DNA of 64,000 bases from Anaerolineales bacterium (GTDB taxonomy: Bacteria; Chloroflexota; Anaerolineae; Anaerolineales; UBA11579), in assembly GCA_026129255.1 (NCBI GenBank), contig JAHCIJ010000001.1, positions 772,965 through 836,964 on the forward strand, given 5' to 3'. Below are positions 47,379-54,591 of the stretch, one piece after another. The notes below the pieces were generated by a model that did not search any database, was not told the origin of the DNA, and was given only the letters and a program-made list of their open reading frames with translations. A program made the position numbers and the translations under genes. Within the stretch, counting starts at the first letter, position 1, and each line of letters opens with the position of its first letter.

Positions 47379-47732
47379 ATGAAATCAATCGCAAAAATTG
47401 CTTCCTGGATCCTGATTTTCTTTGGCGTGCTCTTTATCTGGGGCGCGTTTAGTGACCAAGGCCAGCCCAGCTGGCTGCTGATCGGCGGAATCACGGTGGG
47501 CATTGGCTTTGCGCTGATGTGGTACGCCAACCAAAAACTCACCGCCCCGGGCGAGCAGAAGGTCACCTATAACGTGGATCTGACCGGCGACGTTAAGCTA
47601 GAGAAGTTCCTCTGTCAGCAGTGCGGCGGCGCGCTCAGCGACAAAAATGTGGCCTTGGTGGGCGGTGCGGTGAACGTCACCTGCCCGTTCTGCGGTGCGG
47701 TCTACCAGATCGAAGAGGCACCAAAGTGGTAG
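47379..47732 (+). CDS. Two-helix membrane protein with C-terminal zinc ribbon
   Basis: A 117-aa protein with two membrane helices (~8-25, ~31-50) and a cytosolic tail holding CQQCGG ... CPFCGA, a zinc ribbon. No family is recognised. It is the first gene of the plus-strand arm, 60 nt ahead of the DUF2207 gene, so it may belong to the radical-SAM locus, but the octamer repeat lies between them. TAGGAG precedes the ATG. Confidence 0.7.
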   Translation: MKSIAKIASWILIFFGVLFIWGAFSDQGQPSWLLIGGITVGIGFALMWYANQKLTAPGEQKVTYNVDLTGDVKLEKFLCQQCGGALSDKNVALVGGAVNVTCPFCGAVYQIEEAPKW

Positions 47733-47758
47733 GCGGACATACACTGTACGTGATTCAC

Positions 47759-47790
47759 GATTGACCAATCGACCAAGTGACAGGGTTGAC
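47759..47790. repeat. Octamer repeat upstream of the DUF2207 gene
   Basis: TGACCAAT, CGACCAAG, TGACAGGG, TTGACCG. Ends 2 nt before the start codon, leaving no room for a ribosome site. Confidence 0.7.
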
Positions 47791-47792
47791 CG

Positions 47793-49475
47793 ATGAAACT
47801 ACGACACCGAATACTGCTGCTCATCCTTGTTGCCCTGGTGGCGCTCGTGCCGCTTGGGGTGGCCTATGCTCAGACCTATGCCTTCCAGGTGCCTTACCAG
47901 CGCGTAGATGTGTACTGGGAGACCAACGGCACGCTCACGGTCACGTATGAGATCACTTTCCGCAACGAGAGCTATGCCGACCCGATCGATTATGTGGATG
48001 TAGGCCTGCCCAACGACTTTTATACGATCTCCAACATCAGCGCCTCCATCGATGGGCGGCCGATCACGCATATTGCCTATTCACCGTATGTAGACAGCGG
48101 CGTGGAGCTCGGTCTGGGTGGTAATGCCATCCAACCCGGCAACACGGGCACCGTGCGCATGACGGCAGCCAACATCCGCAATGTGCTGTATGTAGACAAC
48201 CAGGACGACGGGTACGCCAGTGCGCTGTTCATGCCGAATTACTTCGGCTCTGAGTTTGTGAACGGGCGCAGCGACATGACCGTGGTGTTCCATCTGCCGC
48301 CGGGTGTGCAGCCCAGCGAGCCCCGCTGGCACACTGCTGGGCACTCCGGCTTCCCCGAGACGCCCGCCACCGGCGTGGACAACTCGGGCCGTATTACGTA
48401 CACCTGGCGCAATACGAATGCCAGCGCCAGCGAAGATTACTTGTTCGGCGCATCCTTCCCGCGGCGCTACGTACCCAGCGACAGCGTGACCACGCCCAGT
48501 TTCTGGCAGCGCTACGGCATTGACCCCGAAGTGGTCATCACCCTGCTGGTGTGCCTGTGCTTCGCGGGTTTCTTCGGGATCATTGTGGTGTGGGCGGTGC
48601 GCGCGGAGCGCAGCCGCAAGCTCAAGTACCTTCCGCCCAAGATCTCGGTGGAGGGCCACGGCATCAAGCGCGGCCTGACGGCGCCGGAGGCGGCTGTGTT
48701 GCTGGAGCAGCCGATGGACAAGATCCTCTCAATGATCTTGTTCTCGGTGGTCAAGAAGGGCGCTGCCGAGGTGGTGAAGCGCGATCCGCTCGACGTAGCG
48801 CGCATCACCAAGCAAGCCACCGGCTTGCACGAATACGAGAATGAATTCCTGAACGCCTTCGCCGAAGATGGCACGCCCAAACGCCGCCGCGCACTGCAGC
48901 AGATGATGATCGGCCTGGTGCGCCGCGTGGCCAACAAGATGCGCGGCTTCAGCAAGCGTGAGACGGTGGAGTTCTACAAGAAGATCACCGCAGACGCATG
49001 GAAAGCCGTAGAAGCGGCAGATACACCGCAGATCAAGAGCGCGGCCTACGAAGAGAACCTGGAGTGGACCATGCTGGACCAGAACTACGACCGCCGCACG
49101 CGGGACGTGTTCTCCAGCGGGCCGGTGTACTTGCCACGCTGGTATGGCGGCTACAACCCCGTCTATCGCACCTCCGGCGGCGGCACGCCCAGCGTGAGCA
49201 AAGGCAGCGGCGCCCCCACGAAAACAACCGGCGGCGCATCCCTGCCCACCCTGCCCGGCGGCGACTTTGCCGCCTCGATGGTGGGCGGTGTGCAGAACTT
49301 TGCCGGCGGCCTGATCGGCAACCTGTCCGATTTCACCGGCGGCGTGACCAAGGTCACTAACCCGCCCCCGCCGCCCAGCAGCAGTAGCGGAGGCGGTGGT
49401 TTCAGCGGCGGCGGCTCATCGTGTGCGTGTGCCTGCGCAGGCTGCGCCTGCGCCTGTGCTGGTGGAGGCCGCTGA
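47793..49475 (+). CDS. DUF2207 membrane protein with Cys-Ala tail (probable radical-SAM substrate)
   Basis: A 560-aa protein. It has a signal peptide or anchor (LLLILVALVALVPLGVAYA), an outside beta-rich DUF2207 domain (~30-240), a membrane helix (~250-272) and a cytosolic part (~285-450) including GHGIKRGLTAPEAAVLL. A low-complexity Gly/Ser/Pro tail follows, ending SSCACACAGCACACAGGGR with six Cys at residues 544-555. Such tails are typical of peptides modified by radical-SAM enzymes, and the next gene (1-nt overlap) is of that kind. Inference: the tail is matured to a thioether- or otherwise cross-linked form on the cytosolic side. It shares its core with the protein at 50962-51969, which lacks the tail. 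Confidence 0.85.
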   Translation: MKLRHRILLLILVALVALVPLGVAYAQTYAFQVPYQRVDVYWETNGTLTVTYEITFRNESYADPIDYVDVGLPNDFYTISNISASIDGRPITHIAYSPYVDSGVELGLGGNAIQPGNTGTVRMTAANIRNVLYVDNQDDGYASALFMPNYFGSEFVNGRSDMTVVFHLPPGVQPSEPRWHTAGHSGFPETPATGVDNSGRITYTWRNTNASASEDYLFGASFPRRYVPSDSVTTPSFWQRYGIDPEVVITLLVCLCFAGFFGIIVVWAVRAERSRKLKYLPPKISVEGHGIKRGLTAPEAAVLLEQPMDKILSMILFSVVKKGAAEVVKRDPLDVARITKQATGLHEYENEFLNAFAEDGTPKRRRALQQMMIGLVRRVANKMRGFSKRETVEFYKKITADAWKAVEAADTPQIKSAAYEENLEWTMLDQNYDRRTRDVFSSGPVYLPRWYGGYNPVYRTSGGGTPSVSKGSGAPTKTTGGASLPTLPGGDFAASMVGGVQNFAGGLIGNLSDFTGGVTKVTNPPPPPSSSSGGGGFSGGGSSCACACAGCACACAGGGR

Positions 49476-50641
49476 TGGGTTTTCTCGACAAACTACGCGG
49501 CGGCGAAAAAGCCCAGCCGCTTGAACCCGGGCTGTTCTCGTACACCTCGCCCGCCAGCCATCCGCACCACTACCGCCTGCACCTGCGCGTAGAGCCGAAT
49601 GGCGAAGGCCTGCTGGTGATCAACGCCAGCACCGTGCTGCACCTCAACCACACCGCCACCGAGATGGCCTGGCACTTCATCCGCCTCACGCCGCCCGAAC
49701 AGGTGGCCGAGCAGATCGCCAAGCGCTACCGCACCGACAAAAAACACGCCACGGACGATTACGCCGAGTTCGCCAAGACGATCCAGACTCTGATCGAAAC
49801 GCCGGACCTCGACCCGGTGACTTATTTGGATGTCGACCGCGCTACGCCCTATGAGGACCTAACCGCGCCGTACCGCCTGGACATTGCGCTGACCTATAAG
49901 CTGCCCGAAGGCGCCCCCGCGGATGCTGCGCCGAATAAGCGTGTAGACCGCGAGCTAAGCACCGACGAGTGGAAGCAAGTCATCGACAAAGCCTACAACG
50001 CCGGCATCCCGCACATCACCTTCACTGGCGGCGAGCCGACTTTGCGTGAGGATCTGGCCGAGTTGCTGGCCCACGCCGAAGACCGCGGCCTAGTGACCGG
50101 CCTGGTGACCGACGGCCACAAGCTCACCGACACGCGCTATCTCAAGACCTTACTGGATGCAGGCTTGGACCATGCCATGATCGTGCTGCAACCCAGCGGC
50201 ACGCAGACCTGGGACTCGCTGGCCAGCTTCGCCTACTGGCGTGAAGTGCTCAACGATGACATCTTCATCGCCGCTCATTTAACGTTGACCAAGGACAACG
50301 CCGCCCAGGCAGACGCGCTGATCGACAAGCTCTCCGGCAGCGGCATCCGCGCCCTCTCGCTCAGCGAAGCAGACACCTCGCTGAGCGAGGCGCTGCACGC
50401 CGCCCGCGACCATGCCGGCGCGCTGAACCTGCCGCTGGTGTGGGACCTTCCCGTGCCGTATTCGGCGCTCAATCCCGTATCACTGGAGCTGGCGGCCGCC
50501 GCGGGCAAAGAGACGCCCCAGGGCGCAGGCAAGGCCTGGCTCTACGTAGAGCCAGATGGCGACGTGCTGCCCGGCCAAGGCACGAACAAGGTGCTGGGGA
50601 ACTTTGTACGCGATGCGTGGGACGCGATTTGGGGTAGCTGA
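49475..50641 (+). CDS. Degenerate radical-SAM protein without any cysteine
   Basis: A 388-aa homologue of the radical-SAM enzyme at 52103-53728. N-terminal PqqD/RRE-like domain (~30-108: LHLRVEPNGEGLLVI ... LHLNHTATEMA). The radical-SAM barrel keeps DIALTY and the SAM-contact motif FTGGEPTL (~183-190), but the CX3CX2C site is replaced by KLPEGAPADAAPNKR, and the SPASM-like end WLYVEPDGDVLPGQ has lost its Cys too. There is no cysteine in the whole chain, so no Fe-S cluster is possible. Likely a non-catalytic partner or chaperone that binds the leader or tail. Overlaps the DUF2207 gene by 1 nt. Confidence 0.85.
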   Translation: MGFLDKLRGGEKAQPLEPGLFSYTSPASHPHHYRLHLRVEPNGEGLLVINASTVLHLNHTATEMAWHFIRLTPPEQVAEQIAKRYRTDKKHATDDYAEFAKTIQTLIETPDLDPVTYLDVDRATPYEDLTAPYRLDIALTYKLPEGAPADAAPNKRVDRELSTDEWKQVIDKAYNAGIPHITFTGGEPTLREDLAELLAHAEDRGLVTGLVTDGHKLTDTRYLKTLLDAGLDHAMIVLQPSGTQTWDSLASFAYWREVLNDDIFIAAHLTLTKDNAAQADALIDKLSGSGIRALSLSEADTSLSEALHAARDHAGALNLPLVWDLPVPYSALNPVSLELAAAAGKETPQGAGKAWLYVEPDGDVLPGQGTNKVLGNFVRDAWDAIWGS

Positions 50642-50689
50642 GTTAGTCCTGAACGCAGCAACCTTCAGCGTAATCTACAACTCAGCTTG

Positions 50690-50738
50690 GAGATTGCTTC
50701 GTTGGCGGCATTAACATGCCGCCTACCTCGCAATGACA
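50690..50738. repeat. ATTGCGAG-family half repeat
   Basis: TTGGAGATTGCTTCG and CTCGCAATGACA with an inner GGCGGCAT / ATGCCGCC hairpin. Confidence 0.8.
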
Positions 50739-50814
50739 AACTGGTGTCACTTAAAGCGTAATTCCGTAAGTAATCTAGATTAGAACAAGGGTTATTACAT
50801 CGCCCCAAAGTGCT

Positions 50815-50955
50815 TGTCATTGCGAGGAGTGCTGCACATAGTGCAGCCGACGAAGCAATCCCCAAGCAGTCGATTAAGTATGCTAAAAACCAAACCCAGA
50901 TTGCTTCGTCCGCCTCGAACGGCAGGTGCCGTTCGGGTGCTCCTCCGCAATGACA
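50815..50955. repeat. ATTGCGAG palindromic element, full copy
   Basis: TGTCATTGCGAGGAG at the left and CTCCGCAATGACA (one base short) at the right, with inner GAAGCAATCCCC and CCAGATTGCTTC. Each half carries a small hairpin (CTGCACATAGTGCAG; GAACGGCAGGTGCCGTTC). Confidence 0.9.
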
Positions 50956-50961
50956 GACTGA

Positions 50962-51969
50962 TTATCCATAAAACGTAGTCCTGCGAATATCGCTCAGCAG
51001 TGCCGCGGTTACGGCATCATTTTCGTCGCCCAATTCCAGCTTGACGTCGTCTTCGTCCACCACGCCGTCCAGCTCAGCGTAGACGGCGCGTGCCCAGCGG
51101 GCAAAGGTGCGGCTGCCGAGATCCACCGGCTGCTGGCGCAACCACAGCGGCACATAGGAATAGTCGGCCTGGTCAAGCACGGCGACGAAGTCTTCGTTCT
51201 CGCCCAGCAGCACCCAGCCCAGGTTACGGTTGAAGATACGCTCGCGGTCAAAGGTCAGCGACCCATCGCTGCGCGCTTCCTTGGGGGCACGGTCAATGAT
51301 GAGCTTGTAGTAGGCACGCGTCTCATCGAGGCTGTATCCCCCCGCCCGGCCGGCCACATAGCGCACCAGCGGCTGTATTGCTACGCCCAGGTCGAGTTGG
51401 CGCACGGGGATGTTTGGATTGCTCTCGATGATCTCGAGGAACGGCTCTTCAAACTTGTGCAGCGATGCATTGATGGCCTGGGCGGCAAGGCGGCGGCGCT
51501 CGCCGCGCTCCTGGGCGGTCAGCCCCAGCCCGTGCGTACGAAAGGCTTCAGCCACTTCCACCGTGAAGGGTTCGCCACCCGTTTGGCGTAGGATGCCTTT
51601 GCGCAGCAACTCAAACAGGAGCAGCGTGAGCGTGATGTTGATCGGCCGCCCCAGCAGCACAGCAGCCTCAGGCGGCGTGAGCCCGCGCTTGACCCCTCCG
51701 CCTTCAATGCGCGCCACGGCGGGCTGGTACGCGGCGACCTGTCTGCGCCGCCAGGCCGCCCATGCCAGCAAGCCAACCAACGGCACGAAGGCCACTACCT
51801 GCGCCAGCGGCGAGACGGCGAACAATGCCAGCAGCCCGGCCGCCAGGGCGGCGAAAAGCAGCTTGCCCTGCCCGCGGCCTAGTTGAAAGAACAATAGCCA
51901 CAGCAACGCCGTGAACACGGCGACTGTGGCTATGCGCAGGATGCTATTGGCTTCGAAGGTGACGAGCAT
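50962..51969 (-). CDS. DUF2207-like membrane protein without tail
   Basis: A 335-aa protein. It has three membrane helices in the first ~75 residues, then a cytosolic domain homologous to the C-terminal part of the DUF2207 protein at 47793: GGGVKRGLTPPEAAVLLGRP aligns with GHGIKRGLTAPEAAVLLEQP. It lacks the outer DUF2207 domain and the Cys-Ala tail. It is encoded 133 nt downstream of the radical-SAM gene on the same strand but has its own TATAAT 8 nt before the ATG. Possibly a partner of the tailed protein in the membrane. Confidence 0.8.
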   Translation of the reverse strand: MLVTFEANSILRIATVAVFTALLWLLFFQLGRGQGKLLFAALAAGLLALFAVSPLAQVVAFVPLVGLLAWAAWRRRQVAAYQPAVARIEGGGVKRGLTPPEAAVLLGRPINITLTLLLFELLRKGILRQTGGEPFTVEVAEAFRTHGLGLTAQERGERRRLAAQAINASLHKFEEPFLEIIESNPNIPVRQLDLGVAIQPLVRYVAGRAGGYSLDETRAYYKLIIDRAPKEARSDGSLTFDRERIFNRNLGWVLLGENEDFVAVLDQADYSYVPLWLRQQPVDLGSRTFARWARAVYAELDGVVDEDDVKLELGDENDAVTAALLSDIRRTTFYG

Positions 51970-51977
51970 CAGGAGAG

Positions 51978-51983
51978 ATTATA
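51978..51983 (-). promoter_or_regulatory. -10 box, near-leaderless start of DUF2207-like gene
   Basis: TATAAT on the minus strand with 8 nt (CTCTCCTG read on that strand) to ATG 51969. Confidence 0.5.
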
Positions 51984-52009
51984 AGTGACGGAGGATGTAA
52001 TGCCGCCCA

Positions 52010-52064
52010 TTGGTCACTTAGTCATCTAGTCAGCGTTGACTATCAGACTAAGAGACTAAACGAC
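52010..52064. repeat. Octamer palindrome within the minus-strand arm
   Basis: TGGTCACT, TAGTCATC, TAGTCAGC then TATCAGAC, TAAGAGAC, TAAACGAC. Confidence 0.8.
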
Positions 52065-52102
52065 GGAGTGGCACCGAGCTAGCAATCGCTATTAGGCGGC
52101 GC

Positions 52103-53728
52103 TTACTTCCCCATCACGCCAATATCTTCCAGCCCGATCATGTCAAAGTTGCCGCTGGCACGCGTCTTGGTGCGCGTGGTGCTGGGCGATGGGGTGAAGC
52201 CGCCGGTGGGAATGTAGCCCGCGGTGTGGGAGTGTCCCTTGACCTGGTGGGCTGAGGCGCCGGTGCCACAGCTACCACTGCAGCCGGAGCAACCGCCGCC
52301 GCTGCCCTCGGAGATGCGTACGCCGTCACGCGCTTCGCGCTCGATACGGCAGCCGCCGCCGCACAGCGGCAGGTCAGGGCAGGTCCAACACTTCTCAGGC
52401 AGGCCGTAGCCCTTGGGATCTTGCTCGCGGTAGCGGAAGCTGCGGAACAGCTCGCCGTCCCAAATCTGTTCCCATGGGTCGTGCAGAATGTTGCCCGCCG
52501 AAACATAGTACGACTGGCACGGCAGCACATCGCCGTTGGGCTCAATGCACAGCGAGTACTCGCCGGCGTTGCAGCGCTTGGCGCCAATTTCAAGCTCCAC
52601 CGGCGACATGCGGCAATACTCAGTGGGCGTGTACCACAGGAAGCGCATGCCCATTTCGTTGGCTTTGTCGCGCACGCGCACCAGCAAGGCGGGCATCTCT
52701 TTTTCGTCGATAGCGTTGGGATGGGCAAAACCGCCACCGGAGTAGATCATGCCGTTCATGGCGAAGGTACGGATACCCAGCGAGTATAGGAACTCGATGA
52801 TCTCTTCCACATGGCCCATGTTGGCGCGCATCAGCGTGGTGTTGGTAATGACGTGCACACGGCTGGCCACCGCGTTCTCAATGCCCTGCACAGTCTGATG
52901 CCATGCCTTGGCACCCATCATGGCGTTGTGGACTTCGGCGCGGCTGGAGTCGAGCGTGAACTGCACGTGGTTCAAACCCGCATCGGCCAACTGCTGCATA
53001 TAGTCCTGATGCGCAATATGGCGGCCATTGGTGTTGAGGCCGACGACCATGCCGAGTTGGTCCGCATAGCGGATGACCTGTGGCAGGTCTGGGTGCAAGG
53101 TCGCCTCGCCGCCGGTCAGGATCAGATGCGGTACGCCTAGCTCAGCCAGGCGGTCAAGCACGGCATACCACTCCGTGAGCGGCAGCGACGGCATCTCGAG
53201 GCGATTGGCCTCGTTATAGCAATGCGGGCATTCGTTGTTGCAGCCGTAGGTCAGGGCGATGTCAACTTTGTACGGCGCATTGACCTCGACGCTGAACATG
53301 GGCGACATTTCCAAGGTGTCAGACAACTCACAGGTCGGGCAATCGCCATCCGGATGGGCAAAGCCCTCCACCATGTCATAGATCTGCTGCAGCTCGCGTT
53401 CGATCTGCGCCAACGGCACATCCGGGTGCCAGCCGCCGATGCGGGCGCGGGCTTGGGCACGCGGCACGCCATCGAGGGCCATCTTGGCCATCAGCGCGGC
53501 GGTGTGGTTGAGATGCACCACATCGGTCACATCAATAAAGAGCACACCATTGCCACTGGGCTCAAAGCGCAGGTGGATACGCATGCTGCGGCCATGCGCC
53601 ATCGCAATGTCGTAGGTGTGCAAGCCGATACGCGGCTTTTCAGGTTGAGAGAAAGCGGAGAGGAAGTTGGCGGTGTCGCTGCGCACTCCCTGCCAGAGCT
53701 TATTGACACTGCGAGTATCGAGGGCCAT
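52103..53728 (-). CDS. Radical SAM/SPASM enzyme with RRE-like domain
   Basis: A 541-aa peptide-modifying radical SAM enzyme. N-terminal PqqD/RRE-like domain (~48-124: IHLRFEPSGNGVLFI, VVHLNHTAALMA). The cluster motif CNNECPHC (Cys163, 167, 170) is intact, followed by the SAM motif LTGGEATL. The SPASM-type C-terminus has Cys in KRCNAGEYSLC, DVLPCQ, CWTCPDLPLCGGGCR. The tail is itself Gly/Ser/Cys-rich (GGGCSGCSGSCG), then Thr/Pro-rich. The likely target is the Cys-Ala tail of the DUF2207 protein 2.6 kb away in the converging arm. TATACT 7 nt before the ATG suggests a leaderless mRNA. Confidence 0.92.
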   Translation of the reverse strand: MALDTRSVNKLWQGVRSDTANFLSAFSQPEKPRIGLHTYDIAMAHGRSMRIHLRFEPSGNGVLFIDVTDVVHLNHTAALMAKMALDGVPRAQARARIGGWHPDVPLAQIERELQQIYDMVEGFAHPDGDCPTCELSDTLEMSPMFSVEVNAPYKVDIALTYGCNNECPHCYNEANRLEMPSLPLTEWYAVLDRLAELGVPHLILTGGEATLHPDLPQVIRYADQLGMVVGLNTNGRHIAHQDYMQQLADAGLNHVQFTLDSSRAEVHNAMMGAKAWHQTVQGIENAVASRVHVITNTTLMRANMGHVEEIIEFLYSLGIRTFAMNGMIYSGGGFAHPNAIDEKEMPALLVRVRDKANEMGMRFLWYTPTEYCRMSPVELEIGAKRCNAGEYSLCIEPNGDVLPCQSYYVSAGNILHDPWEQIWDGELFRSFRYREQDPKGYGLPEKCWTCPDLPLCGGGCRIEREARDGVRISEGSGGGCSGCSGSCGTGASAHQVKGHSHTAGYIPTGGFTPSPSTTRTKTRASGNFDMIGLEDIGVMGK

Positions 53729-53838: not shown

Positions 53839-54591
53839 ATGGATTTATCCCAAACCCATGCCCGCTACACCCAGCAAGCCTCTTGGACCGCGCCGGCGCG
53901 GCGCCACCTGCTGACGGCGGCCGGGCTACCCAATGCCCGGCGCGTGCTCGAGGTCGGCTGCGGCACAGGAGCGGTGCTGAACGGCCTGCGGCTGCCTGTA
54001 CGCTGTCTGCACGGGCTGGACATTGACCGGGCTGCCCTGCAGCTAGCGCGGCAGCACGCGCCGCAGGCGGTGCTCGCCGCGAGCGATGCGCACCGCTTGC
54101 CCTACCCAGACGCGTATTTTGATATTGCCTATTGCCATTTTGTGCTGCTGTGGCTGGCAGACCCAGCCCGCGGCCTGGCGGAGATGTGCCGCGTGGTGCG
54201 CCCAGGCGGCGCCGTGCTGGCGCTGGCCGAGCCGGACTACAGCCAGCGCGAGGATGAGCCAACCGAGCTGGCGGCGCTGGGCCACGCCCAGACAGCGGCG
54301 CTGCAAGCGCGCGGCGCACACACCAGCATCGGGGGACAGCTAGCGGCGCTGTTCGCCGCGGCCGGTCTGCAGTTGGTAGACGCCGGGCTGCTGCAAACAG
54401 GCGGTCTAGCAATAGGCGCTAGCGCGGCACAAGCGGCTGCCGCAGAGGCCAGCACCCTGCGCGCAGACCTCAGCGGGCGCGTACCGCCCGAGCAGTTGGA
54501 GCGCTGGCTGGCGCAGGACGCGGCGGCCAGCGCCGCGGGCACACGGCGGCTACACGTACCAACCTATTTTGCATTCGGCCGCGTGCTATGA
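53839..54591 (+). CDS. Class I SAM-dependent methyltransferase
   Basis: A 250-aa methyltransferase of the UbiE/Methyltransf_11 kind. Motif I VLEVGCGTG (~41-49), LDIDRAAL for motif II, DAYFDIAYCHFVLLWL and RVVRPGGAVLALAEP. The first ~25 residues (THARYTQQASWTAPARRHLL) are a family-typical helical cap. Substrate unknown. It is divergent from the radical-SAM gene, so a link with that locus is possible but unproven. The following membrane gene has its own -10 box (TATAAT ~54607). Confidence 0.87.
   Translation: MDLSQTHARYTQQASWTAPARRHLLTAAGLPNARRVLEVGCGTGAVLNGLRLPVRCLHGLDIDRAALQLARQHAPQAVLAASDAHRLPYPDAYFDIAYCHFVLLWLADPARGLAEMCRVVRPGGAVLALAEPDYSQREDEPTELAALGHAQTAALQARGAHTSIGGQLAALFAAAGLQLVDAGLLQTGGLAIGASAAQAAAAEASTLRADLSGRVPPEQLERWLAQDAAASAAGTRRLHVPTYFAFGRVL

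Follow-up and report, generated by a model that had tools for sequence, protein, structure and literature searches.

A radical-SAM/SPASM enzyme and the Cys-Ala tail of a membrane protein as a candidate RiPP-like modification system in Anaerolineales

The stretch of an Anaerolineales genome analyzed here (64,000 nucleotides of contig JAHCIJ010000001.1, positions 772,965 to 836,964; hereafter, the window) encodes a radical S-adenosylmethionine (SAM)/SPASM enzyme, RS, together with a membrane protein, DUF_A, that ends in a Cys-Ala repeat. Sequence comparisons suggest that RS probably modifies this tail. The locus would then be a modification system resembling those of ribosomally synthesized and post-translationally modified peptides (RiPPs), with the C-terminal tail of a full-size membrane protein as putative substrate. 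An earlier note, made from the letters of the window, had proposed the tail as an enzyme substrate, and co-occurrence across genomes, split loci, and a second tail type now support that proposal; the chemical change itself we infer.

The C-terminal end of DUF_A reads CACACAGCACACAGGGR (in a longer excerpt, ...GGGSSCACACAGCACACAGGGR), as the earlier note had seen, and the general form of such tails is (CA)2-5 G (CA)3-4 GGGR. Three consecutive Cys-Ala codon pairs occur at a single site in the 2.38-Mb genome, namely the DUF_A tail. The 106 homologous tails have 84 distinct DNA spellings versus only 7 protein versions; all six Arg codons are used for the terminal Arg, and neither the Ala residues nor the final GGGR vary more than Cys does. 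Uniqueness in the genome and the excess of DNA spellings over protein versions exclude a chance origin, and on this sequence evidence the tail is under selection at the protein level. DUF_A bodies diverge down to about 33% identity across the homologue set, whose tails stay constant. The variants comprise a Ser-hinge tail (CACAS-CACACA) in two genomes (L221 and L222) and one short tail, CACACAGGGR, in the L042 genome. All ordinary DUF2207 proteins inspected in the phylum carry at most one Cys in their last 60 residues, and those with an intact end mostly finish in Gly/Ser.

Co-occurrence of RS and the tail was assessed in two sets, one of 400 genomes of the phylum, with RS called at E<=1e-60, and one of 281 genomes from the phylum to which L081 (deposited as Candidatus Zipacnadia) belongs. 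Related genomes were counted as separate in both, and no probability is attached to the counts. In the first set, RS was present in 28 of 400 genomes and the tail pattern in the identical 28. Within the same taxonomic order (36 genomes), 27 held both and 9 neither. DUF_A queried without its tail was missing from these nine RS-less genomes as well, which indicates that the whole cassette is gained or lost. The second set yielded 37 genomes with RS and 37 with the tail pattern, 33 of them with both. Of the four RS-only genomes, two have a Ser-hinge tail, one has a CHSA-repeat tail, and one has the gene cut by a contig end, while the four tail-only genomes carry the tail on short contigs or near contig ends. 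The L042 genome, an apparent case of RS without tail, holds a frame-broken DUF_A with the short tail given above. Three genomes without the tail (G415, G418, and G420) gave no DUF_A match, and a DUF_B-like match (see below) was found in G415 only. Tail-less orthologues beside the same radical-SAM genes were what the earlier note had named as contrary evidence; among complete genes in these 681 genomes from two phyla, no such DUF_A orthologue was found beside RS.

Two further observations depend less on operon linkage. DUF_A is lacking from eight RS loci whose flanks each extend for about 7 kb or more (L040, L048, L050, L051, L061, L065, L074, and L075), and in all eight cases another part of the genome encodes the tail. 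Besides, four genomes encode DUF_A-like membrane proteins ending in a second tail type, a long (CHSA)n Cys-His repeat. This family is related to DUF_A (hhalign E 2.7e-26), and in each of the four genomes one radical-SAM enzyme from a distinct branch (RS_C) adjoins it or lies nearby. Both RS_C enzymes tested gave PqqD and radical-SAM Pfam matches, and no pRS, ZR, or MT homologue (cassette members described below) was recognized beside the (CHSA)n proteins. Matches to a CHxxAC pattern in genomes G172 and G307 were set aside as not cassette-like and without an RS_C relative. The split loci, the (CHSA)n tail with a radical-SAM lineage to itself, and the Cys-free tails of ordinary DUF2207 proteins all favor pairing of enzyme and tail.

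RS is a complete enzyme, as the earlier note had it, with Pfam matches to radical SAM (9.9e-27) and SPASM (4.1e-12), and its CxxxCxxC motif and SPASM Cys residues are invariant in 37 homologues. The AlphaFold2 (AF2) model (predicted template modeling score, 0.82) places three strands followed by three helices at residues 35 to 124. This bbb-aaa order is the defining one of RiPP recognition elements (RREs) (PMC12710340). The PqqD Pfam profile has no match in RS itself but does match 11 of the 37 homologues. By sequence and fold, the nearest solved structures include the peptide maturases SkfB, SuiB, CteB, and PqqE, with identities of about 15 to 22% to the solved SkfB, CteB, and SuiB. PqqE was also the best NCBIfam match (4.5e-35; 121.2 bits versus an equivalog cut-off of 381.35), and RS lies far under all equivalog cut-offs. 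A viperin/defense assignment was rejected: the PADLOC matches are superfamily level only (1e-17) and weaker than the PqqE-type ones, and SPASM and the RRE are present. RS proteins of the window clade bear their own Cys/Gly-rich extension after SPASM (GGGCSGCSGSCGTG; about 52240 to 52300, minus strand), which is absent or different in other clades.

A second radical-SAM-like protein, pRS, matches Radical_SAM (2.3e-11) and PqqD (1.7e-5; 25.5 bits versus a cut-off of 23.4) in Pfam, the latter also in 14 of 26 homologues. The CxxxCxxC motif is absent from pRS in the window and from all 26 aligned homologues, which identifies pRS as a pseudo-enzyme. RS and pRS profiles align along their length (E 4e-86), and pRS is an RRE-bearing paralogue of RS. 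Thus, of the two radical-SAM proteins announced by the earlier note, both with a PqqD/RRE-like domain, only RS can be catalytic. The domain itself stands over the cut-off in pRS and, for RS, is indicated by its homologues, the model, and the profile alignment. Among the cassette members, distances of pRS correlate most strongly with those of DUF_A (r=0.94), followed by MT (0.90), ZR (0.79), and RS (0.72). The value for pRS would fit a DUF_A-specific adaptor where the protein is present. RS and DUF_A occur without pRS in at least two loci, L130 and L221, the latter comprising DUF_A, RS, and MT; the minimal pair is therefore RS and the tail.

The AF2 model of DUF_A (predicted local distance difference test score, 79) comprises a signal peptide, a beta-sandwich ectodomain (residues 31 to 225), one transmembrane (TM) helix (about 245 to 276), a cytoplasmic helical domain, a long disordered linker, helices at residues 489 to 522, and the disordered tail. 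The tail is predicted to lie on the cytoplasmic side, because a single TM helix follows the cleaved signal peptide. Distant homologues have more hydrophobic segments at the TM position. The ectodomain and membrane domain are conserved in all homologues (alignment A1), and the stretch of residues 486 to 522, directly before a Gly-rich spacer, is conserved within clades and may serve as a leader or recognition segment. DUF2207, the name used in the earlier note, fits as a statement of distant kinship. Neither the genome of the window nor any DUF_A homologue scanned gave a PF09972 match over the gathering cut-off, and DUF_A lies under Pfam detection, whereas profile-profile comparison aligns it with DUF2207 over ectodomain, TM, and cytoplasmic part (hhalign, 99.2%, E 1.9e-19, 329 columns). 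No curated family of Pfam, NCBIfam, or PADLOC covers DUF_A or ZR. A fold search returned only a general beta-sandwich match for DUF_A (M1 peptidase N-domain, ribophorin) and no function.

In the mechanism that we favor, the RRE of RS, usually with pRS as an adaptor, would bind the conserved stretch that precedes the Gly-rich spacer, thereby presenting the tail to RS, which would act by radical chemistry on the Cys-Ala repeat. Given the relationship to SkfB and CteB and the Cys-rich substrate, the likeliest product would be sactionine-like thioether links, from Cys to alpha carbon, that connect the two Cys-Ala blocks flanking the Gly or Ser hinge. Thioether chemistry is proposed by analogy with these maturases, as a tentative assignment. 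The modified tail would stay on DUF_A, at the cytoplasmic side by the predicted topology, and MT and ZR may complete or regulate the modification. Near RS, no conserved small Cys-rich peptide turned up in a search for such candidates. Several points speak against this mechanism. No conserved protease or exporter was found in the cassette, unlike in a classical RiPP pathway; the cytoplasmic location of the tail is a topology prediction only; and modification of the tail is argued from sequence linkage. Furthermore, shared descent and operon linkage account for part of the co-occurrence, and most of the genomes are metagenome-assembled (MAGs). RS covaries with DUF_A more loosely than pRS or MT does, and the adaptor role of pRS is not general, as the two loci without it attest.

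Rather than staying on DUF_A, the modified tail might later be cleaved and released as a small peptide, DUF_A being an unusually large precursor in line with classical RiPP logic. The Gly-rich spacer and, in the model, a leader-like helix precede the repeat, in keeping with this, but the lack of a conserved protease or exporter in the cassette, a predicted topology that keeps the tail in the cytoplasm, and the conservation of the ectodomain and membrane domain in their own right make such release unlikely. Dense Cys repeats can also bind soft metals. The tail might accordingly stay unmodified and bind metals or clusters or serve in redox reactions; RS and pRS would depend on it as a membrane-tethered donor of electrons, sulfur, or metal, and the actual substrate of RS would be a different one. 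The zinc-ribbon partner ZR suits this proposal, which we nonetheless regard as quite unlikely, since no other conserved candidate substrate lies near RS, a peptide substrate is the usual ligand of RREs such as those on RS and pRS, simple metal binding would not demand invariant Ala residues and a final GGGR, and a separate enzyme branch goes with the CHSA tail. Lastly, although ordinary DUF2207 proteins likewise bear low-complexity (Gly/Ser) tails, a neutral extension with merely incidental radical-SAM linkage is hardly credible in view of protein-level invariance across 84 DNA spellings, the identical 28 of 400 genomes, the eight of eight split loci, and a Cys-rich C terminus in none of the ordinary DUF2207 proteins inspected.

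The features of the locus are collected in Table 1. The TGA stop of DUF_A and the ATG of pRS have one base in common (49475), as the 1-nucleotide overlap of the earlier note implied. The two-armed locus which that note described is present in the window, but the arrangement is local to it; the same genes elsewhere form a single run, and what is conserved is the enzyme-tail pair. Families of the same order have the gene order ZR-DUF_A-RS-pRS-MT, and more distant groups, ZR-RS-pRS-DUF_A-MT. ZR and MT are members of the cassette, with homologues in 41 loci (ZR, beside the cassette) and 30 loci (MT). Of the 38 tail-gene loci with enough flanking sequence on either side, 24 contain all four partners. 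RS, pRS, ZR, and MT are the only conserved neighbors, joined locally by DUF_B and a LiaF-like gene. In the conserved C terminus of ZR, the zinc ribbon is followed by a near-invariant E-x-P-K-W that might act in docking. The converging arm contains the intact enzyme and DUF_B, the DUF2207-like protein of the earlier note, which is a DUF_A paralogue (the second match to DUF_A in its own genome, 38% over 82 residues) with neither ectodomain nor tail. DUF_B lies beside RS only in the clade of window-type loci. The closest sequenced relatives are Anaerolineales MAGs. Between the converging arms (50690 to 50960) stand inverted and direct copies of an intergenic 'attgcttcgt...cgcaatgaca' element resembling repetitive extragenic palindromes (REP-like). 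Cassettes of the same order have an insertion between RS and pRS, either a PAS-domain protein or one of about 335 residues that is conserved but has no Pfam match (L128:4923-5264, minus strand; L137:7688-8692, plus strand).

Table 1. Coordinates of the genes and protein features in the window and of the (CHSA)n-tail proteins in other loci
Feature	Position	Strand	Description
ZR	47379..47732	+	117 aa; 2 predicted TM helices (hydropathy); C-terminal zinc ribbon CxxC...CxxC
DUF_A	47793..49475	+	560 aa; distant DUF2207 relative with Cys-Ala tail
DUF_A residues 486-522	49248..49358	+	Predicted short strand and helices (AF2 model and homologue alignment A1)
Cys-Ala tail, residues 544-560	49422..49472	+	Candidate core substrate; invariant columns of A1
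pRS	49475..50641	+	Radical-SAM-like pseudo-enzyme with PqqD/RRE N-terminal domain
DUF_B	50962..51969	-	Shortened DUF_A paralogue (membrane and cytoplasmic part)
RS	52103..53728	-	541 aa; radical-SAM/SPASM enzyme with N-terminal RRE; proposed maturase
SPASM cysteines of RS	52349..52573	-	C386, C404, C447, C450, C456, C460; invariant in RS alignment A2
Radical-SAM cluster motif of RS	53219..53242	-	CNNECPHC (C163, C167, C170); invariant in A2
RRE-like domain of RS, residues 35-124	53357..53626	-	bbb-aaa; AF2 model and PqqD Pfam in homologues
MT	53839..54591	+	Class I SAM methyltransferase adjoining RS; Methyltransf_11 9.6e-22 (Pfam)
(CHSA)n-tail protein	L138:4049-5794	-	
(CHSA)n-tail protein	L183:6090-7808	-	
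(CHSA)n-tail protein	L184:4915-6645	+	
(CHSA)n-tail protein	L223:8350-10080	-	

Among known systems, the closest likeness is to a 2025 proposal for MNIO (DUF692) enzymes, in which TIGR04222 integral membrane proteins with Cys-rich, Gly/Ser-rich C-terminal tails are the putative substrates (PMC12452194). A third of the TIGR04222 genomes lack MNIO genes, and the tails are proposed to be periplasmic (PMC12452194). Both proposals thus take a Cys-rich C-terminal tail of a membrane protein as a RiPP-type substrate. They differ in the enzyme, here a radical SAM/SPASM protein with its own RRE, and in the tail, here an invariant Cys-Ala repeat that is predicted to be cytoplasmic and strictly co-occurs with the enzyme. 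DUF_A scores 15.2 bits against TIGR04222 (cut-off, 43) and a type C relative in L029 scores 23.2 bits; the conserved neighbors of DUF_A include no MNIO enzyme. Judged by sequence, the RS/tail pair is a radical-SAM counterpart of the MNIO/TIGR04222 pair, with a far stricter association of enzyme and tail.

RS has the RRE, radical SAM, and SPASM architecture in common with SkfB and CteB (sactipeptide/ranthipeptide) and SuiB. These act on small precursors, whereas the sole conserved Cys-rich candidate here is the end of a 560-residue membrane protein. The cluster motif with SPASM, an RRE, and a Cys-containing encoded substrate (the last by linkage only), all expected of radical-SAM RiPP systems, were found, while a small precursor with leader removal and product export was not. 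A PqqD-type RRE and a SPASM radical-SAM protein are likewise common to PqqE/PqqD, but no PqqA-like precursor was seen. The RS structure also matches that of anSME, a SPASM radical-SAM enzyme that acts on a full-size protein, converting one active-site residue of a sulfatase, and that has no RRE and no repeat tail. The open-licence literature yielded no description of DUF2207 with radical SAM, of the tail letters, or of radical SAM acting on membrane-protein tails, which is only weak evidence that none exists.

RiPP-type radical-SAM enzymes are best known from small peptides that are secreted or act as cofactors. If RS does modify the DUF_A tail, an anchored membrane-protein tail as substrate would widen the uses of radical-SAM chemistry, and a natural run of several Cys-Ala units would become available for the study of regioselectivity. 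There may even be a general and so far undescribed class, a proposition that we rate at slightly under an even chance, of radical-SAM/SPASM enzymes with an RRE, in many cases paired with a pseudo-enzyme adaptor, that would cross-link long (CA)n or (CHSA)n repeats on the cytoplasmic tails of full-size membrane proteins. The product would then be no secreted peptide but a permanent, cross-linked appendage of the protein, which might work as a metal or redox device. Taken with the MNIO/TIGR04222 proposal, modification of the tail would point to repeated recruitment of unrelated RiPP enzymes to Cys-rich membrane-protein tails, and it would provide a first function for a branch of DUF2207-like proteins.

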